From Rhodospirillales bacterium (GTDB lineage Bacteria; Pseudomonadota; Alphaproteobacteria; Rhodospirillales; JANQFP01): a stretch of 56,178 nucleotides of DNA. The translations under genes were made by a program, and so were the position numbers. The stretch lies in NCBI GenBank assembly GCA_028277795.1, contig JANQFP010000089.1, positions 1-56,178 of the forward strand. The letters run 5' to 3'. A model generated the notes under the pieces. That model was not told the origin of the DNA. It did not search any database and saw nothing but the letters and a program-made list of their open reading frames with translations. Below, in pieces: positions 41,657 to 56,178 of the stretch (its first letter is position 1; each line of letters opens with the position of its first letter).

Positions 41657-43150
41657 TCATTCGATCGTGCCGGGTTCGCCACGACCTGACAGACCCTCGG
41701 CCGCGGCCTGAATGAGTGCGAGGTACGGCATCTCCGGACGAAAGGCATAGATGTCCTCCGCCGATCTGGCGACGGACGTCAGGGCATACCCGGCCAGATA
41801 GTCGAAACCGTTCGTCACCGCCGTCGTGTAGAGGCTTATGGTTCGAACCCCCAACACGTACGCCTTGAGTTGGCTCTTCTTGGCGGCATCGACGAATCTG
41901 TCCATCTGGGCCATGAGCGCCGTTTCGCCTTGATCCGGCGAGTACACGTCGATTCCCACGGCGTGCAGCCCCGCCGTCCGAAACGCCGGGAAGCTGGTAT
42001 GGTCCGGCGCGAATCGGGCCAGGACGGCCCGGCACGTCGGCCGCAGGACCGAAACGAATTCCAATAGCCGGCCCTGGGGAATCCCATTCGGCAACCCGAC
42101 CAACTCGAACACCACGCGATTGGCCAAGCCGGCGAACTCCCTCGCGCATAGACCGACGTACTGGGTCCGTCGGCGATTGTCGGCCAGGGTCTCGAAATGG
42201 ACCGGCAAAGCGAGAAGCGACCTCTTCTTGGTCTTGTTCAACATGGTGAGGGCGGCCGAAACCGCCTTCAGAGTCTGGATGTCGAGCTCGAGGATGTGGG
42301 CGGGGTTCCGGGGATCGCCGAGCACCTCGTATCCGGAATCGAAGCCGCCCTTGCGTGGCCGTATCGGAATGCACATGAAGGTCGACATGACCTTGGTGCG
42401 CACCGCCAGGAGTGGACGGAATACGTAATCGACTTCGAACAGGCCGGCGACGGGGCCCGGTCGGGTCCGGCCCGTCCGTTCCTCGATCCCCTTCTTCTCC
42501 GCGGCCTGCACTTCGATCTTTTCTTGGTGCCGCTCTGGTTGAGCGGCCTCCGAAGTCATCTGCGCGGGGCCGTCGGCAGCCCCCGCCTGATCGATACGTC
42601 CGGTATTCATCAGGCCCTCGATCAGGGACGTGAGCGGGGGCAGATCATGGAACAGCGTCTCCTGCCCGTCCGACGACTTGGCGACCTTGATGTCGATGAG
42701 TTCGGAGACCGTTTGCCGGCCCAACAACCGTTTCAGGATCTCTTCACCGATCAGGGTGCATTTGAGTTGGGCCTTCTGCTTGGTGCTTCCGGACAACACG
42801 ACGAGGTAGGACAGGTCGTCGTAACGGATGTAGAGATCGCGCGGCGTCAGGTGCTGATCGATGATCCGTTCGACGGTCTCGTGCACGCGCGCCTCGGTGT
42901 GCGGCCATTTGGCTCCCATGGCATCGCGGACCTTGCGGATGGAAATCAGGAACACCCGATCATCCAGGCCGGCCTGACGTTGGTCGAGGATCTTATCGAT
43001 CTGGCGTTCGAACCTAGCCACGCGCGGGTCGACCTTCTCCGGGGTTTTGGGGTCGGTCGGCACGCTCGCCGCCCGCTTCTGCCGTGCGCCTGCCGGGAAC
43101 CCGAGCGTCTTGAGCAAGGCGGTCAATACGGGTCCTTCGAATGCCGTCAT
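41657..43150 (-). CDS. Degenerate EAL-like signalling protein
   Basis: A 497-residue cytoplasmic protein. The N-terminal part has a segment FLISIRKVRDAMGAKW...LYIRYDDLSYLVVL that resembles a nucleotide-cyclase (GGDEF) core in which GGDEF has become YDDLS. The C-terminal half follows the EAL barrel order: VVFELVGLPNGIP, LARFAPDHTSFPAFRTAGLHAVGIDVYS, GVRTISLYTTAVTNGFDYLAGYAL. The EAL and DDFGTG residues needed for c-di-GMP hydrolysis are not seen. It may be a c-di-GMP receptor or a pure scaffold. The ATG overlaps the stop of the response regulator (ATGA). Assignment rests on pattern similarity only. Confidence 0.6.
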   Translation of the reverse strand: MTAFEGPVLTALLKTLGFPAGARQKRAASVPTDPKTPEKVDPRVARFERQIDKILDQRQAGLDDRVFLISIRKVRDAMGAKWPHTEARVHETVERIIDQHLTPRDLYIRYDDLSYLVVLSGSTKQKAQLKCTLIGEEILKRLLGRQTVSELIDIKVAKSSDGQETLFHDLPPLTSLIEGLMNTGRIDQAGAADGPAQMTSEAAQPERHQEKIEVQAAEKKGIEERTGRTRPGPVAGLFEVDYVFRPLLAVRTKVMSTFMCIPIRPRKGGFDSGYEVLGDPRNPAHILELDIQTLKAVSAALTMLNKTKKRSLLALPVHFETLADNRRRTQYVGLCAREFAGLANRVVFELVGLPNGIPQGRLLEFVSVLRPTCRAVLARFAPDHTSFPAFRTAGLHAVGIDVYSPDQGETALMAQMDRFVDAAKKSQLKAYVLGVRTISLYTTAVTNGFDYLAGYALTSVARSAEDIYAFRPEMPYLALIQAAAEGLSGRGEPGTIE

Positions 43151-44013
43151 CGCGGTGTTCCTTCGGCCGCCCATTTCTTGGTCTTCCGGTTGAGCGTCTC
43201 GGGCTCGATCGGAAGATCGATGATCTCGTCGATGGCCTCCACGGCTTGGGGACGGGGCAAGTCAGTCAGCGCTGGCGACCACGCGAGCAGAAACCGTGTC
43301 GCCCCGCCGGTACCCCGGTTTCGCGCCATCTTGGCGGTTACCGAGCCCAGCATGTCGGCGGTGTAGAACCACAGGATGGCGACGTGCGGCTGGGCGCCGA
43401 CGCAGTCGCGCAAAAACGCCTTGCCGCTCTCCGTGACGGTCACCTCATGGCCGAACCCTGCCAGCATCTGTGCTACCGCCGTCGTTTCCGCGACATCGCG
43501 CCCGACAAGGGCGACCGTGATGCCGGACCGCTTTGCCGCATGTGGGGCATCCTCCGGCAGGGCCTCTCCGCCACGCGTCTCGTCTCGGGTCAGTGCTTTG
43601 TAGAGCTTGACGTGTTCCTGTGCCTTCTTGGCCTCCATGCGGCCGACCTCACGCAACCGGGCCGCCACCTTGGCCACCAGGAGGTCGGCGTCAATGGGCT
43701 TCGTGAGGTAGTCGTCGGCGCCCAAGTCCAGGCCGGCGATAACGTCGTTGCGGTCGGCGTGGGCGGAAAGGAATAAGAACGGCATTTCGGCGAGTTGGGG
43801 ATGATCCTGCCGCAATCGCGACAGGGTTTCCTTCCCGTTCATCTTCGGCATCGAAACGTCACATAGCACCAAGTCCGGATGGTGGCGCACGATGGCGTCC
43901 AGACCCTCCTGCCCGTTGGCAGCCGCGATGACCTCGTGTCCCGCGGACTCGAGGATCTTCCGCAGGGTGACGCGGACAAGCTTTTCGTCATCGATTATGA
44001 CGAGTTTGGCCAT
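43147..44013 (-). CDS. Response regulator with a second, phospho-site-lacking receiver
   Basis: A 288-residue protein. The first receiver (1-120) is complete: acidic pair at 8-9, phospho-acceptor Asp52 in CDVSMPKMNG, Thr/Ser in FLSAHAD, and Lys105 in LTKPID. After a short linker (helical, KKAQEHVKLYKAL) a second receiver-like fold (about 160-275, ITVALVGRDVAETTAVAQML) lacks the Asp; ILWFYTADM stands at that place. There is no DNA-binding or enzymatic domain. The first receiver resembles the stand-alone regulator at 48000-48374. It is translationally coupled to the degenerate EAL-like gene. Confidence 0.85.
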   Translation of the reverse strand: MAKLVIIDDEKLVRVTLRKILESAGHEVIAAANGQEGLDAIVRHHPDLVLCDVSMPKMNGKETLSRLRQDHPQLAEMPFLFLSAHADRNDVIAGLDLGADDYLTKPIDADLLVAKVAARLREVGRMEAKKAQEHVKLYKALTRDETRGGEALPEDAPHAAKRSGITVALVGRDVAETTAVAQMLAGFGHEVTVTESGKAFLRDCVGAQPHVAILWFYTADMLGSVTAKMARNRGTGGATRFLLAWSPALTDLPRPQAVEAIDEIIDLPIEPETLNRKTKKWAAEGTPR

Positions 44014-44226
44014 CGATCCGCCCCTCATCGTCTTCGGCTCTGTTCCAACCCGGCATCCGCTCTGGCCTCCGAGTTACGCCTCGCAGGACGCCGAGCCGGA
44101 ACGCCCGCGAGTCCAGCAATGCAATACGACCTACCTCAGCTCACTGATTGTCAAATCAAGAACGCGTTCCAATGGACCTTCTGACGGCAGATTGACTGTG
44201 GAATTTGGCCTCCGGATCTGCCGCCG
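44014..44226. other. Gap with a possible promoter for the regulator/EAL-like pair
   Basis: On the minus strand TTGACA (44149-44154) is followed at a long spacing by TCGTAT (about 44124-44129). This is a weak candidate promoter about 110 bp upstream of the response regulator. No terminator or reading frame is evident. Confidence 0.3.
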
Positions 44227-45249
44227 CTACGGCATCAGTGTCGATCGATCCAGGGCATAGAACCCGTGCTCGGCCAGGAACGCCTGCGTTGGCGCGAGCA
44301 AGGTCTCGATCGCCGGCGGGGGGACGTACACGACCTCGCCGAGGCTGAGACCCCCGAACACATGGAACATCGCGTAGTCTTCGCCCAGCCCTTTCATTTG
44401 GGCCGCCGGGACCGGTTGGATGATCACATACTTCTGCTCGACCCTCCAATCACCGGCGGCGCCGGGAACCCGCAGCAACAGGGTCTTCACCTGCAGGTGT
44501 TCCAACTCGGCCGAGATCGGCTCCACCGCATGGGGCAGTCGCGTCATCAGCCCCTCGCCGACCCCCAACAGCAGCGGGACGCAGAACTTGGTCAGGCGGA
44601 AAAAGCGGTCGATCTGAAGACCGATGAAATCCGTCCTCGTCGAGACACCGAGTCGGCTGTTGAAGTTGTCGCCGGAACCGAGGTTCAGTCGGGCGCACGC
44701 GTCAAGGTAGGGTTGATCGACGGTATAGATGGCGGAGTTATGGCCGGCGAGTTCGGCGACGATGTCCTTGAGGTATTCGTATCGCTCCACATTGATCTCG
44801 ATCGGTTCGGTGACAAGGTCGACATGCGCTTTGATCGGCAGGTTGAACTGTCGCGAGGGCAGTGCGTGCGGGGATGGCGAAGCGGTCCGAAAGTCATCGG
44901 CCCGTCGCGGGCCGTCGAATCCGAGGTAGCGGTCGGCCGCAAACAGCTCGAGCAATGCCGAGAAGATCCCCCATGCCGACCGGGTAAGGGCGGCTTCGTC
45001 GTCTTCGTCCACCTCGTAGGTGTACCAGAACTCGTCTCCGATCGCCTTGACGAGGTAGAGGCGGGTATGATCGATGAATTGGTCGCTGAGCAGCCGTCGG
45101 TAGAAATCCCGTTCGATACCGAACAGGAGCTTCAGGAACTCCTGATACAGGGAATGACGGTGGGTGTCGTCGTCCACGCTCGCTTCGACCAGAGCCTGTT
45201 TGACCATCGTCGATCCGGCCAGATCGATCGAGATGCTCAAGTAGGCCAT
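44227..45249 (-). CDS. Class III nucleotidyl-cyclase-like protein
   Basis: A 340-residue soluble protein. The start SISIDLAGSTMVK (Asp9) resembles the first metal-binding strand of class III adenylate/guanylate cyclases (DxxGST). VKAIGDEFWYTYEV resembles their lysine and second aspartate strand (K-x-x-GD). The rest (QIDRFFRLTKFCVPLLLGVG, GLGEDYAMFHVFGGL) is not recognisable, and the usual Asn/Arg transition-state residues were not found. It may therefore be a cyclase of unusual type or an inactive relative. It lies between a sensor kinase and a response regulator on the same strand, 121 bp after the kinase. Confidence in coding is high; confidence in function is modest. Confidence 0.6.
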   Translation of the reverse strand: MAYLSISIDLAGSTMVKQALVEASVDDDTHRHSLYQEFLKLLFGIERDFYRRLLSDQFIDHTRLYLVKAIGDEFWYTYEVDEDDEAALTRSAWGIFSALLELFAADRYLGFDGPRRADDFRTASPSPHALPSRQFNLPIKAHVDLVTEPIEINVERYEYLKDIVAELAGHNSAIYTVDQPYLDACARLNLGSGDNFNSRLGVSTRTDFIGLQIDRFFRLTKFCVPLLLGVGEGLMTRLPHAVEPISAELEHLQVKTLLLRVPGAAGDWRVEQKYVIIQPVPAAQMKGLGEDYAMFHVFGGLSLGEVVYVPPPAIETLLAPTQAFLAEHGFYALDRSTLMP

Positions 45250-45370: not shown

Positions 45371-47953
45371 TCACGGTGTGGCCGCCGGCCGATCGCCGGC
45401 GCAGGGGAGGTACACGTCGACCGTCGTTCCGGCGTCGGGCTCGCTGTCGATGACGACGGCGCCGCCGTGTCGCGTGACGATGCCGTGCACCACGGCGAGT
45501 CCCATGCCGATGCCGTCGCCCACGGTCTTGGTGGTGAAGAAGGGGTCGAAGGCGCGGGCGATCGTCGAGTCGTCCATGCCGCGGCCGGTATCCGAGATGC
45601 GGAGCCGGACGTAGTCCCCCTCGCCGAGGCCCTCGACCGCGGACCCCGCATCGCCACCGATCGCCGTCCGCTTCACCGTCACGCCGAGCTCGCCGATCCG
45701 TCCATCCATGGCGTCGATGCCGTTCCCCGCCACGTTCAGAAACACCGTCGCCAGATCGTCGGCGTTGCCGGCCGCCGTCCCCGCCGAGGGTTCCACATCC
45801 TCGGACACCCTGATGGTCCTCGGCACCGTGGACTTGAACAGGTCCAACGTGTGCCGCACCACCGCGCCCACGTCGACCACCTCCCGCCCGTCGGCGTCAT
45901 GGTGGCCGAAGGCGACGATCTGGCCCACCAGGTCCTTGGCGCGCTCGCCGGCTTCCACCACCATCTCGAGGTTTTCGCGGGCTTCGCTTTCGGCAGGGAA
46001 GTCGCGCATGGTGGCCCGCGCCAGCTCCAGCATCGGCAGCAGCATGTTGTTCAGCTCGTGGGAGATGCCAGCGGCCAGGTTGCCCAGACCCTGCATCTTC
46101 TCCGCTTGTCTCATCCGCTGCTCGGCGTCCTTGACCTGGGTGATGTCGGCGCGGATGAGGACCGTCCCGCCGTCCTGGGTGGGGTATGTGCGCGACAGCA
46201 TCCAACGGTCGCCCACCACGCGGTGGGGTGCGCGCGGACCCTTCTCGCGGTGGTCGGCGACGCGTTCGGCGATCCACTCCTCCTCGCGGCCCTCGGCATC
46301 CTGGTAGTATCCCCGTTCCGTGAGGGCTCGGACCATGCGCTCGAACGGCACGCCGGGCTCGAGAACATCACTGATCACGGAAAGCGAATCGCGGTAACTG
46401 GAGTTGCATAGAACCAGCCGGTCGCTTTTGTCGAACATCGCCCATCCCTCGGAGATGCTCTCGATGGCGTCGACGAGGCGCGCGTGGGCCTGCCGGGCGC
46501 GTATTTCCGTCTCCACCTGTTCGGTCACGTCGGCGCCGGTGCCCCGATATCCGGCGAACGCGCCCGAATCGCCGAACACGGGGACGCCGCTGACGCTGAC
46601 GATCCGAACGCGCCCGTCGTCCGCGACCACCGAGTACCGGAAATCCTTGAACGGCCGCGTGGCCTCCAGGTCCGCGAGGTGGCCCCGCCAATCTTCGTCG
46701 GACTGGCCCGGCGCCCCGGGGAGCTCGTCGCGACGCCGCCCGATCAAGGCCTCAGACGGAATGCCGGTGCGTATCTCGAATTGACTGGAAAACCAAGTGA
46801 ATCTCAGGTCCGCCCCCATCGTCCACAGCCAGTCCGACGACGCCTCCGCGAAATCGCGGAACTGCCGCTCGCTTGCCGACAGGCGCCGCGCCGCGCGGGC
46901 AAGCAATGCCATGTGGGTGGCCAGGCCCCCCGTCATCGCGAGGCCGGCCGCAAGGACCAGCCAGCTCATCATCAAGTCCGGTTCGAAGAGTCCGGGCACG
47001 GGGGACAGGACGAACTCCCAGCGCCGCCCGCCGATATCGATGGCGTCGGTGTAACGACGGTTCGCGCTTCGAGGGGAGGGCGTTTCGGCGAAGCCGGAAA
47101 CCACCGATGTGCTTCGCCGCCGCGAGCTATGGACGTAGAGAAACCGCTCCGAGTCGGCGGCGGATAGGTCTCGAATAGCGACATCGATGCCCACAGGATC
47201 GACATGAACCATCGCGTGCTCGACGAGGTCTCTGATCACGTAGCCGCCGGCCAGATAACCGAGGACCCGGGGCCGCCCCTGGTCAGGCGCAACGGCGTCG
47301 TCCTTGGCGTAGAGGGGCTGAAACGCCAGCACCGCGAAACCGCCCGCGGACTCTTTGAGCAGGGACGCGTCGAAGCGGCCGCTCAGGACCAGGGCTCCGC
47401 TGTCTCCCGAAGCGGCCATCGGTGCCGCGAATTGCGGGATCTGGCGCAAATCGACCCCGATGTCGAACCCGTGCCGGTCCAGCGGATCGACGAACAGGAT
47501 CGGGACGTACACGTCCCGCCGGCCGGCCGGCCGCCGTTCACCGGCCGTGCCGAGATCGACGATGGGCCGAGGCGGCCGACCCCGCACCGACTCCGACTCG
47601 AAGGCCTCCCGGTCGGCATGGCGCACGCGCGGCGCCTCTATCACGAAATGCAGTCCCGGTTGGCGGCGGCGGATGGCCGAGACGAACGTGCGGAACTCCC
47701 CGGCGTCGACCACCTCGCTGGCCTCGTACAGATCGGCGGTCGAGCGCAGGGCGTCCAGCGACCGGAATATCTCCAGTCGGATGACGTCGATGCGATCGCG
47801 CGCCGCGCTGCGGAATCGTTCCGACACCTCGGCCCCGGACATTTCGCGCATATGCTGGAAGCTGATCGCCGACGCGGCCAAGCCAATCACGACGACCACG
47901 ATTAACGCGCCGTAATAGGAGCGGACGTCGGACGATATCGCCAGCGGTCGCAT
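45371..47953 (-). CDS. CHASE-PAS-PAS hybrid-less sensor histidine kinase
   Basis: An 860-residue membrane kinase. One helix lies near 14-33, a periplasmic CHASE-type domain at about 60-300 (ending GGRRWEFVLSPVPGLFE), and a second helix at about 330-350. Two PAS domains follow (FRDFAEASSDWLWTMGADLRFTWFS; AIESISEGWAMFDKSDRLVLCN), then HisKA with phospho-acceptor in AAGISHELNNML, and the ATPase domain (NVAGNGIDAMDG, DTGRGMD, GIGMGLAVVHGIV). CHASE domains sense small extracellular ligands. There is no output domain, so it should signal to a separate regulator such as the one encoded just upstream at 48000-48374. Confidence 0.92.
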   Translation of the reverse strand: MRPLAISSDVRSYYGALIVVVVIGLAASAISFQHMREMSGAEVSERFRSAARDRIDVIRLEIFRSLDALRSTADLYEASEVVDAGEFRTFVSAIRRRQPGLHFVIEAPRVRHADREAFESESVRGRPPRPIVDLGTAGERRPAGRRDVYVPILFVDPLDRHGFDIGVDLRQIPQFAAPMAASGDSGALVLSGRFDASLLKESAGGFAVLAFQPLYAKDDAVAPDQGRPRVLGYLAGGYVIRDLVEHAMVHVDPVGIDVAIRDLSAADSERFLYVHSSRRRSTSVVSGFAETPSPRSANRRYTDAIDIGGRRWEFVLSPVPGLFEPDLMMSWLVLAAGLAMTGGLATHMALLARAARRLSASERQFRDFAEASSDWLWTMGADLRFTWFSSQFEIRTGIPSEALIGRRRDELPGAPGQSDEDWRGHLADLEATRPFKDFRYSVVADDGRVRIVSVSGVPVFGDSGAFAGYRGTGADVTEQVETEIRARQAHARLVDAIESISEGWAMFDKSDRLVLCNSSYRDSLSVISDVLEPGVPFERMVRALTERGYYQDAEGREEEWIAERVADHREKGPRAPHRVVGDRWMLSRTYPTQDGGTVLIRADITQVKDAEQRMRQAEKMQGLGNLAAGISHELNNMLLPMLELARATMRDFPAESEARENLEMVVEAGERAKDLVGQIVAFGHHDADGREVVDVGAVVRHTLDLFKSTVPRTIRVSEDVEPSAGTAAGNADDLATVFLNVAGNGIDAMDGRIGELGVTVKRTAIGGDAGSAVEGLGEGDYVRLRISDTGRGMDDSTIARAFDPFFTTKTVGDGIGMGLAVVHGIVTRHGGAVVIDSEPDAGTTVDVYLPCAGDRPAATP

Positions 47954-47999: not shown

Positions 48000-48374
48000 T
48001 CAGCCCGACCCCGACAGGCAGTCGCCGACCGCACCCAGCAGCTGGTCCTCCGAGAACGGCTTGGCGAGGACGGCGTCGGCGCCGAACTGCTTGGCCAGCT
48101 TGAGGAAGTCGAGGTTGCGCGTGCGCCCGCCGCCGGAGATGGCGATGATCTTGAGGTTCGGGTGGTCGCGTTTCAGCTCGATGGTGGTTTCCACACCCTC
48201 CTTCTCCGGCATGATGATGTCGGTGATCAGGAGGTCGCAGGCCTGGGCGTTCTGCATCTCGATCGCCTCCCTGCCGTTCGCGGCCTCGGTCACCTCGTGG
48301 CCGGCCGACGTGAGGATCTTGCGGATGGTGACGCGCACCAGTTTCTCGTCGTCCGCAACCAGTATCCGTGCCAT
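48000..48374 (-). CDS. Stand-alone response regulator receiver
   Basis: A 124-residue single receiver domain. The acidic pair is DDE at 8-10, the phospho-acceptor Asp52 is in LITDIIMPEKEG, Ser80 follows IIAIS, and Lys105 is in VLAKPFSED. No output domain is present. ATG at 48374 has AAGGAG upstream. It lies between two sensor kinases, 46 bp before the CHASE kinase start, and may shuttle phosphate or act on a partner protein. Confidence 0.9.
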   Translation of the reverse strand: MARILVADDEKLVRVTIRKILTSAGHEVTEAANGREAIEMQNAQACDLLITDIIMPEKEGVETTIELKRDHPNLKIIAISGGGRTRNLDFLKLAKQFGADAVLAKPFSEDQLLGAVGDCLSGSG

Positions 48375-48397
48375 GTGTCGTCTCCTTTGCTCTTTGA

Positions 48398-51300
48398 TCA
48401 CTGCGAAGCGCGTGTGTCGCCGGGGCCGGGTTCAGCGGCGTTCCCGCTGACCAGGGGGAGAAAGACGTCGAAGGTCGTGCCGACCCCCACCTCGCTGGAC
48501 ACCCGGATGGTTCCGCCGTGCCGGGTGACGATGCCGTAACAGGTGGCGAGCCCGAGCCCGGTGCCCTCGCCGACCTCCTTGGTGGTGAAGAAGGGCTCGA
48601 AAATGCGGTGCATGGTCTTTTCGTCCATGCCGTGGCCCGTATCGGTGACGGTGAGCCTGGCGTAGGGGCTGGGCGGCAGCGCCCCCTCGGCGGCCGCCGT
48701 CCCGTCGCCGATGGTGGTGCGCGCGAGCGAGATGGCGAGCCTGCCGACCCGCCCCTCCATGGCGTCGACGGCATTGGACGCCAGGTTCATCAGGACGGCG
48801 CCGAGCTGGGCCTGGTCCACGTCGACGGTTCCGGTGTCGGGCTCGATCGCCGGCTCGAGGGTGACGGTCGTCGGTACCGATGACCGCAGGAGACCCATCC
48901 AGCGCTTCATGAAATCCGAGATGTCGACGACCTCCCGTTTCGTCTCTTCGCGGCGGCTGAAGCTGAGGATCTGCTGCACCAGGGTCTTGGCCCGCTCTCC
49001 GGCCTCGGTGACCATCTCGAGGTTCTCGCGAAGTGGGCTGTCCTCGGGCAGATCCTCAATGGACAGCGCGGTAAGCGACAGGATCGGCTGCAGCATGTTG
49101 TTGAGGTCATGGGCGATGCCGCCGGCGAGGTTGCCCAGGGATTCCATCTTCTGCATCTGCGCCAGCTCCTGCTCGGTCTGCAGGCGGTCGGTGACGTCCT
49201 CCTGCACGGCGACGTAATGCATGACGGTACCGCCCACGTCCTTGATCGGCGAGATCACGGTTTCGGCCCAGTAGAGCGAACCGTCCTTGCGCCGGTTGAG
49301 AAACCGGCCACGCCAATTCTCGCCGACCCGCAGCGTCGCCCACAGCGCGTCATATCGTTCCCTTGGCGTTTCGCCCGAAGCCATGATGCTCGTTGGCGCG
49401 CCGATGGCGTCTTCCAGCGTGTAACCGGTGACCTCGGTGAAGGCACGGTTCACATACTCGATTCTGGTGTCCGTATCGGAGATGACGACCATGATCGGGC
49501 TTTGTTCGACCGCCGCCGTGAGGATCCTCAACTCCTCTTCGGTCTTCTTGCGGGCGGTGATGTGGGTATCGGTGCCCGACAGACGGACCGCCTTTCCGGC
49601 GTCGTCACGGATCGCGCGCCCGTGGGCGAGAAACCACCGGTCGCTTCCGTCCTTGTGCACCATGCGGTGCTCGATCTCGTAAGCGTCCGTCCGGCCCTCG
49701 ATGCAGTCGCGGGCGGCGGCCATGACCCGGTCGCGGTCGTCCGGATGCACCAGGGCGCCCCAGTCCTCGATGCGATTTGGTATCTCTTCGTCGGCGTATC
49801 CCAGTATCGCCTTCAGGTTGGGCGCCACGTAGATGGCGTCGGTGGCCAGCTCCCAGTCCCAGACGCCGACCCCGCCGGCGAGGACCGCGCGCTGGTAGCG
49901 CTCCTCACTCTGCATGAGCGCTTCCTCGACCCGGTGCCTCTTGGTCACGTCGAGGACGATGCCTTCCAGTGCGGTGAGGGAGCCGTCGGCGGCCCAGATC
50001 CCCTGGCCATGCTCCTGCACACGTTTCTCGGTGCCGTCGCTGGTTCGCAGGCGGTAGGAGAGCTGGAACGGTCGCCGCTCGCCCACCGCCGCCTGCACCT
50101 CGTCCCACACGCGGTCGCGGTCGTCCTGATGGATCAGGTCGACGAAGGCCAGGTTGTCCTGGCCGACCAGCGCTCCCGGTTCGAAGCCGGTCAACGCTTT
50201 CGCCCCTTCGCTGACGAATTCCATCGGCCAGTCGGGCTCGTTGCGACAGCGGTAGGCCATGCCCGGCAGGTTGGCCATCATGGTGGCGAGCTCCCGCTCG
50301 CGCTCGCGGAGCTCGCCCTCGGCCCGCCGCCGCTCCGCCGAATCGCGCAGGGCGATGAGGCCGTAGGCGAGATCGTTGGCCATTTCCTCCAGGATCTCGA
50401 TCTCGTGGGCGGTGAAGGCGTTCTTTGCCCCGGCGTAGACATTCATCGTGCCGAAGATGCGGGCATCGTCCCGCAGCGGCAGGGCGACCAAGGAACGGAA
50501 CCCACGACTGGCGGCCTCCTCGCGCCACGGCCCAACGGCCCCGTCGCCGGCCAGGTCGCGCTCGACCACGGTGCGGCCGGTGCGGATGGCGCGGCCGGTC
50601 GGCCCCCGTCCGTATTCGTCGTCGGCCCAGGTGATCCGCACCTGGTTCAGATAGCCTTTTTCGTACCCGTAGTGGGCAACGGGGCGCACCGTCTTGGCCG
50701 CATCGTCCTCGGCGAAACCCACCCAGGCCATCCGGTAGCCGCCCTCCTCGACCGCGATGCGGCACATGTCGAACAGGAGCTGCGCCTCGCTGGTGGCGCG
50801 GACCAGCATCTGGTTGCCTTGACTGATGGTGCGCAGCGCCCGGTTGGTGCGGACCAGGTCGTCCTGCGCGCGCTTGCGCTCGGTGACGTCGACGAGGACG
50901 GCGAGCGACCGGACGAAGCCGTTCTCATTCCCCTCCGCGATGGCCGACAGCTCGACGTCGATCACCTCGCCGTTCTTCTTGACCATCTGGTAGGGAACGT
51001 CCTTGCAGGCCCCGGTGCGCAGGAAGTCCGGCAGCACCACCTCGGCGGCGTAGCGGCGCGACTCCTCGGTCAGGAAATCGGTCGACGGCCGGCCGATCAC
51101 CTCGTCGCGCTCGTAGCCCAGATGCTCTAGCCAGTAGTCACTGACGCTGATCAGCCGACCACCGCCATTGATCGAATGCATCATGACGGGCGTCTTCGTA
51201 TAGAGCTCTCGGTAGCGTTCCTCGCTTTCGCGGATTGCCAGCTCGGCAAGTCGGCGAGCGGTGACGTCGTGGAGCGTGATCATCGACGCGGTCTCGCCCT

Positions 51301-51964
51301 GCCAGGTGACCTCCACCGCCGAGACCTCGGCGTGGAGGGGCGGTCCGGCCGGCCGCGTGATCTCGACCGCGTCGGAGGCGTCGGTGGCAAGCGGCAGGGG
51401 AAGCGGGCGCCCCAGGATCCCGTCCTTGGGCCGCCCCAGGATGCGCTCGGCGGCCGGATTGACCAGTTGGACCAGGCCACCGGCATCGACGACGACCATG
51501 CCGTCGGCGCTGCTGTCGATGAGCCGCGCGAAGTTGGCGCTGGCCGCCTCGGCGTCGCGACGCTGCGCCGCCAGCTCGTTCAAGGTTTCCTGTCGTTCCG
51601 CACTGTAGCGGAGCACCCGGTCCATTACGCGTCCGTCCGTCACGCCCTTGACCATGTAGTCCTGGGCGCCGGCTCTGATGGCGGCCGCCGCGAGCTGTTC
51701 GTCCTCGACGCCGGTCAGCACGATGACCGTTGTCGCCGGATCGATGGCGCGGATCGCTTCGACGGTCCTCAGGCCCGCTGAGTCCGGAAGGTTGAGGTCC
51801 AGTAGGATCGCCGCGAACGCGTCGGCCTCAAGCCGCTCGCGCGCCTCCGCCATGGTGCCGGCGGCGACCAGCTCGTAGCGATGATCGGGCAGGTCCGCCA
51901 TCACCTCGCGGATGATGTCGACGTCGACCTCGTTGTCCTCGACGATCAGGAGTCTGACGGGCAC
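48398..51964 (-). CDS. Large REC-multi-PAS-GAF sensor histidine kinase
   Basis: A 1188-residue cytoplasmic kinase with an N-terminal receiver (1-120, Asp56 in LLDLNLPDSAGL; Lys106 is followed by Gly rather than Pro). PAS domains begin near 145, 262, 625, 745 and 860, and a GAF domain lies at about 395-545 (FDMCRIAVEEGGYRMAWVGF). HisKA with LAGGIAHDLNNML (near 950) and an ATPase domain (NLASNAVDAMEG, DTGHGMD, GTGLGLATCYGIV) complete it. An N-terminal receiver makes it a phosphorelay intermediate that could be driven by another kinase here. There are no transmembrane segments. It is followed by the stand-alone receiver gene on the same strand. Confidence 0.93.
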   Translation of the reverse strand: MPVRLLIVEDNEVDVDIIREVMADLPDHRYELVAAGTMAEARERLEADAFAAILLDLNLPDSAGLRTVEAIRAIDPATTVIVLTGVEDEQLAAAAIRAGAQDYMVKGVTDGRVMDRVLRYSAERQETLNELAAQRRDAEAASANFARLIDSSADGMVVVDAGGLVQLVNPAAERILGRPKDGILGRPLPLPLATDASDAVEITRPAGPPLHAEVSAVEVTWQGETASMITLHDVTARRLAELAIRESEERYRELYTKTPVMMHSINGGGRLISVSDYWLEHLGYERDEVIGRPSTDFLTEESRRYAAEVVLPDFLRTGACKDVPYQMVKKNGEVIDVELSAIAEGNENGFVRSLAVLVDVTERKRAQDDLVRTNRALRTISQGNQMLVRATSEAQLLFDMCRIAVEEGGYRMAWVGFAEDDAAKTVRPVAHYGYEKGYLNQVRITWADDEYGRGPTGRAIRTGRTVVERDLAGDGAVGPWREEAASRGFRSLVALPLRDDARIFGTMNVYAGAKNAFTAHEIEILEEMANDLAYGLIALRDSAERRRAEGELRERERELATMMANLPGMAYRCRNEPDWPMEFVSEGAKALTGFEPGALVGQDNLAFVDLIHQDDRDRVWDEVQAAVGERRPFQLSYRLRTSDGTEKRVQEHGQGIWAADGSLTALEGIVLDVTKRHRVEEALMQSEERYQRAVLAGGVGVWDWELATDAIYVAPNLKAILGYADEEIPNRIEDWGALVHPDDRDRVMAAARDCIEGRTDAYEIEHRMVHKDGSDRWFLAHGRAIRDDAGKAVRLSGTDTHITARKKTEEELRILTAAVEQSPIMVVISDTDTRIEYVNRAFTEVTGYTLEDAIGAPTSIMASGETPRERYDALWATLRVGENWRGRFLNRRKDGSLYWAETVISPIKDVGGTVMHYVAVQEDVTDRLQTEQELAQMQKMESLGNLAGGIAHDLNNMLQPILSLTALSIEDLPEDSPLRENLEMVTEAGERAKTLVQQILSFSRREETKREVVDISDFMKRWMGLLRSSVPTTVTLEPAIEPDTGTVDVDQAQLGAVLMNLASNAVDAMEGRVGRLAISLARTTIGDGTAAAEGALPPSPYARLTVTDTGHGMDEKTMHRIFEPFFTTKEVGEGTGLGLATCYGIVTRHGGTIRVSSEVGVGTTFDVFLPLVSGNAAEPGPGDTRASQ

Positions 51965-51985: not shown

Positions 51986-52435
51986 CTATTTCGGCGGCAG
52001 GATGGCGACGGACGTCCAGAAGCGGGCCATGGTCCGGATCGAGTCGGCGAACGCGTCCGCCTGGCGCGCCTTGAGGACGAAGCCGTTGGCATGCCGAGAG
52101 TAAGCGTCGATCACATCCCGTTCGTCTTCCGAAGCCGAGAGCGCGATCACCGGAATGACACAGAGTTCCGAGTCGCCCTTGACCTGCTGAAGCACGTCGC
52201 GCCAGTCCGTCTTCGGCAGGTCGAGATCGAGGAGGATCAGATCGGGGCGCACGGCACTTCGATGCGCGCCCTGTCGGCGCAGGTAGGCCATCATCTCGTC
52301 GCCGTCACGGACCACGGTCAGACGACAGCGGCCGTCGCGGTTCGCCATGATCGTGCGCACCAGATCGATCTCGGTTTCGGCATCCTCCGCCAGGAGAACA
52401 TCGATGGGCTCTCGACTGCTCTGCGGGTCAGGCAT
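51986..52435 (-). CDS. Rcp1-like response regulator
   Basis: A 149-residue receiver of the Rcp1 type (extended alpha4-beta5 region and [16 protein letters not shown]). Asp70 is in LILLDLDLP and Lys122 in FVLKARQ, where the usual following proline is replaced by alanine. ATG at 52435 is backed by AAGGAGTGAGGAGA. It precedes the large kinase gene by 21 bp, so it is likely its upstream operon partner. Confidence 0.88.
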   Translation of the reverse strand: MPDPQSSREPIDVLLAEDAETEIDLVRTIMANRDGRCRLTVVRDGDEMMAYLRRQGAHRSAVRPDLILLDLDLPKTDWRDVLQQVKGDSELCVIPVIALSASEDERDVIDAYSRHANGFVLKARQADAFADSIRTMARFWTSVAILPPK

Positions 52436-52553
52436 TCTCCTCACTCCTTCCGCCGACGACGCGCGGCGATTTGCCATATATTTTGGCGAGAATTTCTGCG
52501 TTGTTGCAACTTCTGAGACCTATCACACGGGTCCTGTCGAGTCCGTCGAGCCG

Positions 52554-53006
52554 TCACCCTTTGGGCGGCAGCTTGACGACCGAAAACCAGAAGCCCTCGA
52601 CGGCACGGACGATCTCGGAGAACTCGTCCAGCCCGAGCGGCTTCTTCACGTAGCAGTTGGCGTGCCGGGCGTAGGCCTTGGCGATGTCCTGCTCGGCCCG
52701 GGAGCTGGTCAGCACGGTGACCGGGATGTGGAGGAGGTCGGGGTCGCTCTTCATCTCGTCAAGCACCTCGCGGCCGTCCTTGCGCGGCATGTTGAGATCC
52801 AGGAGCACCAGGTCCGGGCGGGGCGCGTCGGCGTATTGGCCCTGTCGGCGCAGATAGGCCATCGCCTCGACGCCGTCGCGCACCACCGACAGGTGGTTGT
52901 GGATGCGGCTGTCCTCCATGACCTCGCGCAGCAGGTCGACGTCGGTCTCGGAGTCCTCGACCAGCAGGATCTGTATGAGGTCGGGGTCATTGGGCGCTGG
53001 GCTCAT
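52554..53006 (-). CDS. Rcp1-like response regulator
   Basis: A 150-residue single receiver. Asp70 is in [13 protein letters not shown], with Thr/Ser in TVLTSS and Lys122-Pro in YVKKPLG. It is closely similar in layout to the regulator at 51986-52435. It starts 11 bp after the stop of a kinase whose phospho-acceptor segment is the phytochrome-kinase type HDLQEPLR, the classic partner of Rcp1 proteins. Confidence 0.9.
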
Positions 53007-53016
53007 CGGATTCCCC

Positions 53017-54510
53017 TCACTTGTCCGGGATGGTGAAGCGGAAGTCGGCGCCGCCGCCGGGCTCGGAGGCGACCCGGATGGCGCCACCGTGGCGTTCGAC
53101 GATGCGCTTGCAGATGGCCAGCCCGATCCCCGATCCCGGGTAGTCGTCGCGGCCGTGCAGGCGCTGGAAGATGACGAAGATGCGGTCGGCGTATTCGGGA
53201 TCGATGCCGATGCCGTTGTCGCGCACCGAGAATTCCCAGGCGTCGTCCATGCGGTTGGCGGTGACGTGGACCTCCGGTGCCGTCTCGTTGCGGAACTTGA
53301 TGGCGTTGCCGACCAAGTTCTGGAACAGGCGCATGATCTGCGGGCCATCGGCGACGACGGTCGGCAGGGGCCCCTTGACGACGTTGGCGCCGCCCTCCTG
53401 GATGGCCGAGTCCAGGTTGGACAACGCCTGATCGAGGAGGTCGGCCGCGTCCACCGGCTCGAACGCCCCGCCGCTCGTGGTGACCCGCGAGAACGAGAGC
53501 AACGCGTCGATCATCCGCGACATGCGCAGGGCGCCATCGAGGGCCTGGCTGACATACTTTCGCCCTCGGTCGTCAAGCGCATCGAGGTAACGCTTCTGCA
53601 ATAGATCGCAGTAGCTGGAGACGGCGCGCAGCGGCTCCTGCAGGTCGTGGGAAGCGACGTAGGCGAACTGCTGCAGATCCTGGTTCGAGCGCGCGAGCGA
53701 ATCGTTCTTGAGCGCGAGTTCGCGCTCCGCCCATTCCCGCTTGACCACCTCCTTCGCCAGCCCATCGCGCGACTCGACAAGGCGTGTCGTCGCCTCCCGA
53801 AGGTTCCCCGCCATTTGGTTGAGGGCGCTGGCGACGGCCGCGATTTCGTCCTGCCCGCGGACCTCGATCCGGTGGTCGAGCTCGCCCCGCGCGTAAGCGC
53901 CGATCCCCGTTTCGATGAGGTTGAGTGCATGGCTGATCCGGCGCGCCAGGAGCGATGAAAGCACGACCAGCAGGACGAGCGCGCCACCGCCGACGATCAT
54001 CAGGACGGCCTGGACCGTCTCCGTGTGCGCCGCGACGCCCTTGTCCCCGAACCGCGCCATGCGTTCGGCCCCGAGGAACAACGACTGCGACGTCGAGGAG
54101 AGCTGGATGGCGAGACGCCTTTCGAGCTGCGCGGCCACATCCTCGGCAATTCCTTTGCCGCGGCGCACCTCCACGTCGACGAGCCGATCGAACAGCCCGC
54201 CGAGCGTCGCGTGGTCCCGGCGGACGGTAGCGAAGCCCGTCAGAGCGCGGTCGTCCGTGTCCGCAAGCAGTCGGCCGAGCGAGGCGTGCTTCTTCAGCCA
54301 CTGCAGACGCGGCCGTTCGCCTTGGCCGAGGAGATAGTCCCCGGTAAGAATCGAGAGCTCGAAGGCCCCGCGGGCGACCTCGGCCGCCGCGTCCTCCACG
54401 CGGAGCGCTTCCTCGACCTGGCGGAAACTCGCGAACACGACGGCCGTCGCCACCGCGAAGACCGCGACCTGCACCACCACGTAGCCGACCAGGATCGTAC
54501 GGATTCGCAT
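53017..54510 (-). CDS. HAMP-containing sensor histidine kinase
   Basis: A 497-residue membrane kinase. Helix 1 is at about 5-29 and helix 2 at about 180-205, with a CHASE3-like all-helical extracytoplasmic segment between ([20 protein letters not shown]). HAMP follows (205-258), then a coiled coil, HisKA with [19 protein letters not shown], and the ATPase domain ([32 protein letters not shown]). ATG at 54510 overlaps the stop of the upstream binding-protein gene by one base, so the pair is co-translated. The catalytic half is nearly identical to the truncated kinase at 55502-56178. Confidence 0.92.
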
Positions 54511-55505
54511 CAGTCGATCACCGTGACCGCATCCGGCCGGATGGCCCGCAATCCGTCGAGATGGAAGAGATCCAAGTAGTTCGGAATCGTCGACGCCTGT
54601 ACCAACCCCGACTCCGTGGCCCAACGTGCCATCTCTTCGAGGCGTGGGAGCAAGTCCTGCGGCAGATGCACGCGGAGTTGCGAGGCGGCGAGCACCTTGG
54701 AGATGGCGGCCTCGTCGCTGCCGAGCCGCTCTGCCAAGACCCGCGCCACCTCTTCCGAGTGCTGGCGGGCGAACTCCTCGGCGCGCAGCAACGCCCGTAG
54801 CGCTTTCGCGACGTCACCGGGACGGGAGGCGACCAACGCGTCCGAGGCGACGAGGAGCTCGGCCTGCACGTAGAGCCCCGGCGCGGAGAACACGACGGCG
54901 TTGTCGCCCAGGAGGTCGACGGCCTGGCCGATGAACGGCTCGCGCATCGAGAAGGCGTCGATCTCGCCGCGCGCCAAAGCTCCGGGAAGGTCCTCGGCTT
55001 TCATGTATGCGATCTCCAGGTCGGTCGCGGCGAGCCCCTGGTCGAGATGGAACAGGTGCAGGAAGAAATGAACGGCCGAAGCCCGCTGGGTCGCCACCCG
55101 CTTGCCGCGGAGGTCCGATTGCTGCACGATCGCGCGGTCACGCCGGGCAACGATCCGGTTGACGTTGTCCGTTGCGTACACGCTCGCGAGGACGCGGAGG
55201 TCCTGGCGCTCGAAGCTGCCGAAGACGACCGGCACCTCGGTCGACGAGATCACGTCGGCGCGCCCGCGAAACAGACCGTCTCTCAGCGCACGCTTGCCCG
55301 ATGGGTACCAGGTCACCTCGATGTCCAGACCTTCCGCAACGAAATATCCCCGGTCCGCGGCCAGGATGACCAGCGCGCTGGACGGCTGGCGCGCCAACCC
55401 GATCCTGAGCGGCTCCGCGGCGTCGGCGGCACCGGGCATCACGGCCGCAAGCGAGAGCGCGACGACGACCGCGGCGCGGGCCATCCTGTGAAACCTGGTG
55501 CTCAT
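54510..55505 (-). CDS. Periplasmic solute-binding protein (NMT1/SsuA-like) coupled to a kinase
   Basis: A 331-residue secreted protein with a clear signal peptide (ARAAVVVALSLAAVMPGAADA). The mature part starts AEPLRIGLARQPSSALVILA and contains DRGYFVAEGLDIEVTWYPSGKRAL and GLYVQAELLVAS, typical of nitrate/sulfonate/taurine or thiamine-precursor binding proteins. No ABC permease or ATPase is next to it. Instead its stop overlaps the start of a sensor kinase, and another kinase begins 3 bp upstream of it. It is therefore more likely a sensory ligand receptor than a transport component. Confidence 0.88.
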   Translation of the reverse strand: MSTRFHRMARAAVVVALSLAAVMPGAADAAEPLRIGLARQPSSALVILAADRGYFVAEGLDIEVTWYPSGKRALRDGLFRGRADVISSTEVPVVFGSFERQDLRVLASVYATDNVNRIVARRDRAIVQQSDLRGKRVATQRASAVHFFLHLFHLDQGLAATDLEIAYMKAEDLPGALARGEIDAFSMREPFIGQAVDLLGDNAVVFSAPGLYVQAELLVASDALVASRPGDVAKALRALLRAEEFARQHSEEVARVLAERLGSDEAAISKVLAASQLRVHLPQDLLPRLEEMARWATESGLVQASTIPNYLDLFHLDGLRAIRPDAVTVID

Positions 55506-56178
55506 GCGTTCCCCGCGCTCCGGTCCGGGATGGTGAAGCGGAAATCGGCGCCCCCGCCGGGCTCGGAGGCGACCCGGATGGTGCCGCCGTGGCGCTCGAC
55601 GATGCGCTTGCAGATGGCCAGCCCGAGCCCCGATCCCGGGTACTCGTCACGGCCGTGCAGGCGCTGGAAGATGACGAAGATGCGATCGGCGAACCCGGGA
55701 TCGATGCCGATGCCGTTGTCGCGCACCGAGAACTCCCAGGCCTCGTCCACGCGGTCGGCGGTGACGGTGACCTCCGGTGCCGCCTCGTTGCGGAACTTGA
55801 TGGCATTGCCGATCAGGTTCTGGAACAGGCGCATGATCTGCGGCCCGTCGGCGACGATCGTCGGCATGGCCCCCCTGACGACCGTGGCGCCGCTCTCCTG
55901 GATCGCCGTTTGCAGGTTGGACAGCGCCTGATCGAGCAGGTCGTCCGCGGCCAGCGGCTCGAACGTCCCGCCGCGCGTGGTGACCCGCGAGAACGAGAGC
56001 AGCGCGTCGATCATGGCCGCCATCCGCCGGCTCCCGTCGACACAATGGCGGAGGTACTTCCGCCCCCGCTCGTCGAGCCCGTCGCCATAGCGCTTGGACA
56101 GCAGGTCGGCGTAGCTGGAGACGGCGCGCAGAGGCTCCTGCAGGTCGTGCGAGGCCACGTAGGCGAACTGCTCCAGCT
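55502..56178 (-). CDS. Sensor histidine kinase, C-terminal part (cut by window end)
   Basis: About 225 residues of the catalytic end are inside the window; the gene continues past the right edge, so no start is assigned. HisKA carries [19 protein letters not shown] and the ATPase domain carries [18 protein letters not shown] and [14 protein letters not shown]. At protein and DNA level it is strikingly similar to the end of the kinase at 53017-54510, so the two arose by a recent duplication or were homogenised by gene conversion. It overlaps the start of the solute-binding protein by 4 bp. Confidence 0.88.
   Translation of the reverse strand, partial: LEQFAYVASHDLQEPLRAVSSYADLLSKRYGDGLDERGRKYLRHCVDGSRRMAAMIDALLSFSRVTTRGGTFEPLAADDLLDQALSNLQTAIQESGATVVRGAMPTIVADGPQIMRLFQNLIGNAIKFRNEAAPEVTVTADRVDEAWEFSVRDNGIGIDPGFADRIFVIFQRLHGRDEYPGSGLGLAICKRIVERHGGTIRVASEPGGGADFRFTIPDRSAGNA

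Follow-up and report, generated by a model that had tools for sequence, protein, structure and literature searches.

A class III cyclase homologue encoded with receiver proteins and a degenerate GGDEF-EAL protein in a Rhodospirillales bacterium

We examined a 56,178-nucleotide stretch of DNA from a Rhodospirillales bacterium (contig JANQFP010000089.1 of assembly GCA_028277795.1; hereafter the window), in which three consecutive minus-strand genes code for a protein with homology to class III nucleotidyl cyclases (CYC), a response regulator with two receiver domains, and a degenerate relative of the GGDEF-EAL proteins (pEAL). The stop codon of the regulator and the inner start codon of pEAL overlap as ATGA at positions 43147-43150. 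An earlier note made from the sequence alone had located these genes and their overlap, and read them as a phosphorylation-driven module of signaling proteins with eroded catalytic motifs that could make or bind an unusual nucleotide. We find that the module is real and that this reading was partly correct: CYC is better preserved and less familiar than had been thought, and pEAL is older and commoner.

CYC has no match in Pfam or NCBIfam, none in PADLOC at E-values up to 1, and none to the Pfam model PF00211 at E-values up to 10; the clade to which it belongs is unnamed in these libraries. Sequence searches of solved structures returned chance-level rows only, a single weak row (1ybt, E 1.9) being the class III cyclase Rv1900c, and the only PHROG match was to phrog_18024 (E 6.3e-5), a family of unknown function. 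When a three-sequence CYC profile was aligned directly with ordinary cyclases using hhalign, the relationship was weak (12.7%, E 0.0023); it became strong by virtue of a sister family and of fold comparison. CYC aligns with the phrog_18024-type family at 94.9% (E 4.5e-8), and that family aligns at 92.4% (E 5.3e-7) with 14 of the 16 class III cyclase matches of the genome, the other two having no usable stretch. An AlphaFold2 model built from 17 sequences (predicted local distance difference test, pLDDT, 69.4; predicted template-modeling score, pTM, 0.72) replaced an earlier three-sequence model that was too weak (pLDDT 47); its low-confidence regions are the C-terminus and an enlarged insert (approximately residues 156-207) before the D208 motif. 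In a Foldseek search of the PDB with this model, all 50 matches listed were class III cyclases (2w01_A, E 4.4e-7), and VIA-align superimposed it on soluble guanylate cyclase (Z 15.0, root-mean-square deviation 3.0 Å, 188 aligned residues) and on Ma1120 (Z 14.2). The absence of the Pycsar cyclase PycC from the 50 VIA-align rows listed is uninformative either way. The best row in a viral fold library was a giant-virus cyclase-domain protein (E 8e-5). The modeled fold of CYC is that of a class III cyclase, as the earlier note had surmised.

The active site was compared in two alignments, one of 10 sequences (A5) and one of 17 (A8), of which 15 are only about 20% identical to CYC; residue numbers follow the CYC translation (P0001), with the Met as residue 2. 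Across all 17 sequences S8, D10, S14, T15, K18, K69, G72, D73, E74, K141, D208, G211, D215, F218, R219, K287, G288 and Y293 are invariant, K287 being nearly so in the smaller set. Judged by position against class III cyclases, D10 and D73 are the metal ligands, K69 and D208 the pair that recognizes the base, as in adenylyl cyclases, and R219 and K287 the residues that act on the transition state and the phosphates. Both metal-binding aspartates, lying in the motifs IDLAGST and IGDEF, are kept just as first noticed, and so are the ATP-type Lys/Asp base pair and the transition-state Arg. The residue that departs is the transition-state Asn, which is usual and not universal among these enzymes and which we do not take as defining: its place is filled by Asp215 in all 17 sequences. 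According to the accessible text of PMC4886424, Rv1900c has His at this place and other cyclases also lack the Asn; therefore, activity of CYC stays possible. Judged by these positions, CYC is not eroded, and the label does not apply to it. In three Pycsar cyclases covered by the accessible text of PMC11224242, a Tyr or Phe stands two residues before the first metal Asp (the placement is ours), where CYC has Ser8. Because the base pair is of the ATP type and Ser replaces the Pycsar aromatic residue, conversion of ATP to cyclic AMP (cAMP) is the simplest prediction, and we find no positive sign of the unusual nucleotide that had been suggested.

Neither a Pfam scan, which gave nothing above the cut-off, nor PADLOC recognizes pEAL (numbered after translation P0003, in which the ATGA Met is residue 9). 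We aligned a 33-protein family (29 + 4 members, after removal of 3 of 32 frames shorter than 391 residues) and compared its profile with domains of the same genome. The N-terminal half aligned with 12 of its 14 GGDEF matches at 95.5% (E 1.4e-8; reversed template 1.0%) and the C-terminal half with five true EAL domains, out of seven EAL matches, at 95.0% (E 3.9e-8; reversed template 0.2%). At the profile level, pEAL is a relative of the GGDEF-EAL proteins with both domain types. Its GGDEF place aligns to DDLSY, one residue off the YDDLS quoted in the earlier note, MCI occupies the EAL place, and the NVS, DDFGTG, KID, AEG and QG places are likewise replaced. Not one of the 33 aligned members keeps GG(D/E)EF or EAL, and the loss is therefore old and fixed across the family; the motifs are indeed gone, as had been observed, and local erosion is not the cause. 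The family is present in 69 of 385 genomes of the class, sometimes as tandem frames. Two of its members (L134, L135), annotated as hypothetical proteins, lie directly before hydrogenase maturation genes on two Azospirillum plasmids. Elsewhere in the genome of the window, two adjacent degenerate EAL-like frames (G000:C103:56634-58426; L046, L047) are matched by the Pfam EAL model and missed by the pEAL search.

The first receiver of the two-receiver regulator is complete (PF00072, E 1.1e-31), with DD13 and the phospho-accepting D57. The second, spanning approximately residues 168-285, has Phe at the phospho-Asp place, confirming the loss first noticed there; a five-sequence profile failed to recognize it (0.9%), and a larger one aligned with receiver profiles at 73.5% (E 3e-5; reversed control 0.2%). 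The NCBIfam model PRK09581 (PleD) runs from the first receiver into part of the second (residues 6-207, E 2.6e-24), like the PleD-type double receiver, although its 85.9 bits fall far below the cut-off of 474 bits and the GGDEF part is here a separate, dead gene.

The association of these genes recurs. On another contig of the same genome (C61, locus L006), a receiver, two pEAL proteins, a CYC protein and a DUF1045/TIGR03223 gene follow one another in one direction; the receiver is 62%, the two pEAL proteins 55% and 26% and the CYC protein 49% identical to their window relatives. An NMT1 protein, a HAMP kinase, a receiver and a receiver-PAS kinase lie divergent upstream of this run; C61 is a paralogous cluster of the window module. 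Similarly, in a Rhodospirillales metagenome-assembled genome (PFFW01000041.1, locus L036) a kinase, a receiver (71%), a pEAL protein (31%) and a CYC protein (50%) are encoded in one direction. CYC itself is rare: it was found in 1 of 100 relatives and 1 of 385 genomes of the class, in both cases the genome of the window, and in 3 of 317 genomes of the order, namely this one, the genome that holds locus L036 (G780) and a further one (G840). Receiver, pEAL and CYC stand together at three of the four distinct CYC loci. A lack of co-occurrence in other genomes would have counted against the earlier reading; pEAL and CYC do occur together elsewhere, in the company of a receiver. The two-receiver regulator was found only in the window, and C61 and L036 carry a one-receiver regulator instead. 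Searches with tblastn of CYC against plasmids and against phages gave no match, and a three-sequence CYC alignment (A3) run against viral contigs gave 23 pattern matches with no relative among them.

At C61, the DUF1045/TIGR03223 protein (L006:4163-4852), whose gene starts 37 bases after CYC, shows weak similarity to LigT-like 2H phosphoesterases; it could be an off-switch for the cyclic nucleotide. Near the same cluster, a frame at L006:2545-3921 resembles a phage-type integrase, as judged from its translation alone.

The sister family of phrog_18024-type cyclases turned up in 21 of the 299 phylum genomes searched (that of the window included) and on 24 viral contigs, 17 of them distinct once near-copies are set aside. 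Its members are about 20% identical to CYC and share all the invariant positions listed above from S8 through R219. They differ in their partner: a gene for an M78 (ImmA/IrrE-type, HExxH) metallopeptidase lies immediately upstream of the cyclase at 11 of 12 bacterial loci (L064-L075, the exception being L073) and at 22 of 24 viral-contig loci (L096-L119), the exceptions being L107, which is cut near the contig start, and L115. All 10 upstream proteins submitted passed the PF06114 cut-off, and a hidden Markov model built from these 10 found no match at the window, L006 or L036, where CYC is linked to a receiver and pEAL. One bacterial locus encodes the sister cyclase as a fusion with a NUDIX domain (L064:1357-2859). 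CYC looks like a branch that changed its partner, the direction of change being our inference. More broadly, it is possible, though we regard it as rather doubtful, that these proteins form an undescribed class III clade with Asp for the transition-state Asn, in which most sampled members, from bacteria and prophages, work with an ImmA/IrrE-type protease, whereas the CYC branch took on a receiver and a dead GGDEF-EAL adaptor in its place. If so, the CYC branch would represent a novel type of output for a phosphorelay, and its sisters would represent a switch linking a cyclic nucleotide to a protease, with a product possibly other than cAMP. A literature search, with subscription papers mostly out of reach, found no account of the module and none that pairs either pEAL or an M78 peptidase with a cyclase.

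We tentatively propose, giving it somewhat less than an even chance, that a two-component phosphorelay has its output in this trio and acts via pEAL on CYC, which would make cAMP or a close purine relative. The sensor kinases would phosphorylate a receiver, either the stand-alone one at 48000-48401 or the intact first receiver of the regulator (43147-44028), or both; the phosphorylated receiver would act on pEAL, a putative adaptor unable to make or cut cyclic-di-GMP, and pEAL would in turn control CYC, presumably through physical contact. CYC, as a predicted homodimeric class III cyclase, would use ATP as its substrate, and the product, cAMP or a closely related purine nucleotide, would go to cAMP-type receptors elsewhere in the cell. 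The genome has 12 matches to cyclic nucleoside monophosphate-binding domains, and therefore receptors for such a nucleotide exist. The flanking kinases and receivers, together with the recurrence of receiver, pEAL and CYC at C61 and L036, bear out the suggested link to phosphorylation. Among 20 pEAL neighborhoods from other genomes, taken from 29 loci with frames read stop to stop, there are eight in which a receiver or kinase frame lies no more than 300 bases away.

Several observations weigh against this proposal. The other 12 of those 20 neighborhoods have no receiver or kinase within 300 bases, and these are raw counts with no null rate. The presence of pEAL in 69 of 385 genomes of the class, as against one for CYC, means that pEAL has other jobs. 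The CYC of G840 (L138), which is more distant and longer, has no receiver, kinase, pEAL or M78 gene nearby, as judged by hidden Markov models. The gap of 198 bases between CYC and the regulator makes co-transcription not certain, and the Asp at the Asn place in every clade member seen makes an inactive or differently acting site possible.

That last residue bears directly on an alternative that we consider unlikely, in which CYC is a pseudo-cyclase, a nucleotide-binding, non-catalytic partner, and the trio is a scaffold that senses ATP or GTP or relays phosphorylation by contacts only. The partners of CYC are themselves dead enzymes, and with 16 ordinary class III cyclase matches the genome can make cAMP independently of it. 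Nevertheless, the 17 sequences, 15 of them only about 20% identical to CYC, all share the metal Asp pair, the base Lys/Asp, the Arg and the phosphate Lys, which points to kept catalysis, and other cyclases such as Rv1900c lack the Asn, according to the accessible text of PMC4886424. It is also unlikely that the product is cyclic GMP, a pyrimidine cyclic mononucleotide or a linked nucleotide, with Asp215, Lys18 and Lys141 shaping a new pocket. The absence of the clade from family libraries leaves room for this, as does the fact that, by eye, its invariants S8, K18, K141 and D215 are not common to the 14 aligned cyclases of the genome; yet the base pair is of the ATP type, and Ser stands where the three Pycsar cyclases of PMC11224242, in its accessible part, carry Tyr or Phe by our placement.

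We consider it improbable that pEAL is a cyclic-di-GMP receptor gating the cyclase, with the receivers as mere neighbors. LapD offers a model for such a role, pEAL keeps the GGDEF-EAL order, and true GGDEF and EAL proteins are encoded in the genome; however, the wholesale replacement of the EAL-associated places in pEAL and the loss of both signature motifs from all 33 members argue against it. That the genes merely adjoin one another in a signaling-rich region is very improbable: gene order does vary among the three loci, and a kinase separates the stand-alone receiver from CYC in the window, but receiver, pEAL and CYC keep company at all three, with pEAL proteins 31-55% and CYC proteins about 50% identical to those of the window, and pEAL is ATGA-coupled to the regulator.

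Set against known systems, CYC resembles the class III nucleotidyl cyclases (soluble guanylate cyclase, Ma1120, Rv1264, Rv1900c and CyaB) in its modeled fold (Z 13-15), metal Asp, base Lys/Asp, Arg and phosphate Lys; it differs from them in having Asp for Asn, in the extra residues before the D208 motif, where model confidence is low, and in escaping PF00211. The DUF2652 proteins, as described in the accessible part of PMC4886424, are another unannotated class III-like set in which the metal Asp is kept, the Arg is kept in part and the Asn is absent; they are a different family that carries Lys-Glu or Glu-Lys pairs, and none of the 10 members of the A5 alignment matches the DUF2652 model. With Pycsar PycC, as far as the accessible text of PMC11224242 describes it, CYC shares the class III fold and the two metal Asp, and it differs in the Ser at the aromatic place and in the lack of a PADLOC match; no Pycsar-type effector gene was found among the scanned genes adjoining CYC.

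LapD, CsrD and YdiV are relatives of the GGDEF-EAL proteins that function although one or both enzymatic activities are missing. As these are generally described, pEAL is set apart by the absence of both motifs throughout its family and by its class III cyclase neighbor. The analysis exposes a clade of cyclase homologues, unnamed in the libraries searched, whose residue signature is fixed and whose partners are of two kinds. Should it be pEAL that links phosphorylation to cyclase control, a role outside cyclic-di-GMP signaling would emerge for dead GGDEF-EAL proteins, which are common in Alphaproteobacteria.

The genes of the window are listed in Table 1 in the order of their transcription on the minus strand, from the NMT1-like protein to pEAL, with the motifs of CYC and pEAL below. 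The receiver-PAS-GAF-PAS kinase and the stand-alone receiver after it overlap by 4 bases, and CYC starts 121 bases after the CHASE-PAS kinase. TRAP transporter genes lie downstream of pEAL, of which the library scan covered only the TRAP binding protein. Between 41200 and 45500, a sigma-70 promoter scan found none (shuffle mean 0.8), and a terminator scan gave no signal, with three found against a shuffle mean of 2.7.

Table 1. Genes and motifs of the module and its surroundings in the window
Feature	Position	Strand	Remarks
NMT1/THI5-like periplasmic binding protein	54510..55505	-	35% identical to C61 counterpart
HAMP histidine kinase	53017..54624	-	41% identical to C61 counterpart
Open frame with receiver in last half	52554..53348	-	start probably internal; 59% identical to C61 receiver
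Stand-alone receiver (second of two near HAMP kinase)	51986..52477	-	
Receiver-PAS-GAF-PAS histidine kinase	48398..51964	-	
Stand-alone receiver	48000..48401	-	counterpart of pEAL-adjoining receivers at C61 (62%) and L036 (71%)
CHASE-PAS histidine kinase, immediately preceding CYC	45371..47953	-	
CYC, class III cyclase-homology protein, 340 residues	44227..45249	-	ATG at 45249; AlphaFold2 model and structural alignment
Two-receiver response regulator: intact, then degenerate receiver	43147..44028	-	
pEAL, degenerate GGDEF-EAL protein	41657..43150	-	alternative earlier ATG at 43174
CYC metal Asp 1 (D10)	45223..45225	-	invariant in A5 and A8
CYC K69-AIG-D73: base-recognition Lys and metal Asp 2	45034..45048	-	invariant in A5 and A8; roles by position
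CYC D208..G211..D215..R219: base Asp, Asp replacing transition-state Asn, transition-state Arg	44596..44631	-	invariant in A5 and A8
pEAL YDDLS at GGDEF place	42809..42823	-	hhalign
pEAL MCI at EAL place	42368..42376	-	hhalign

At the window edge, positions 55502-56158 code for a second HAMP-kinase-like C-terminal end, 53% identical to the C61 kinase, which suggests a local kinase duplication.

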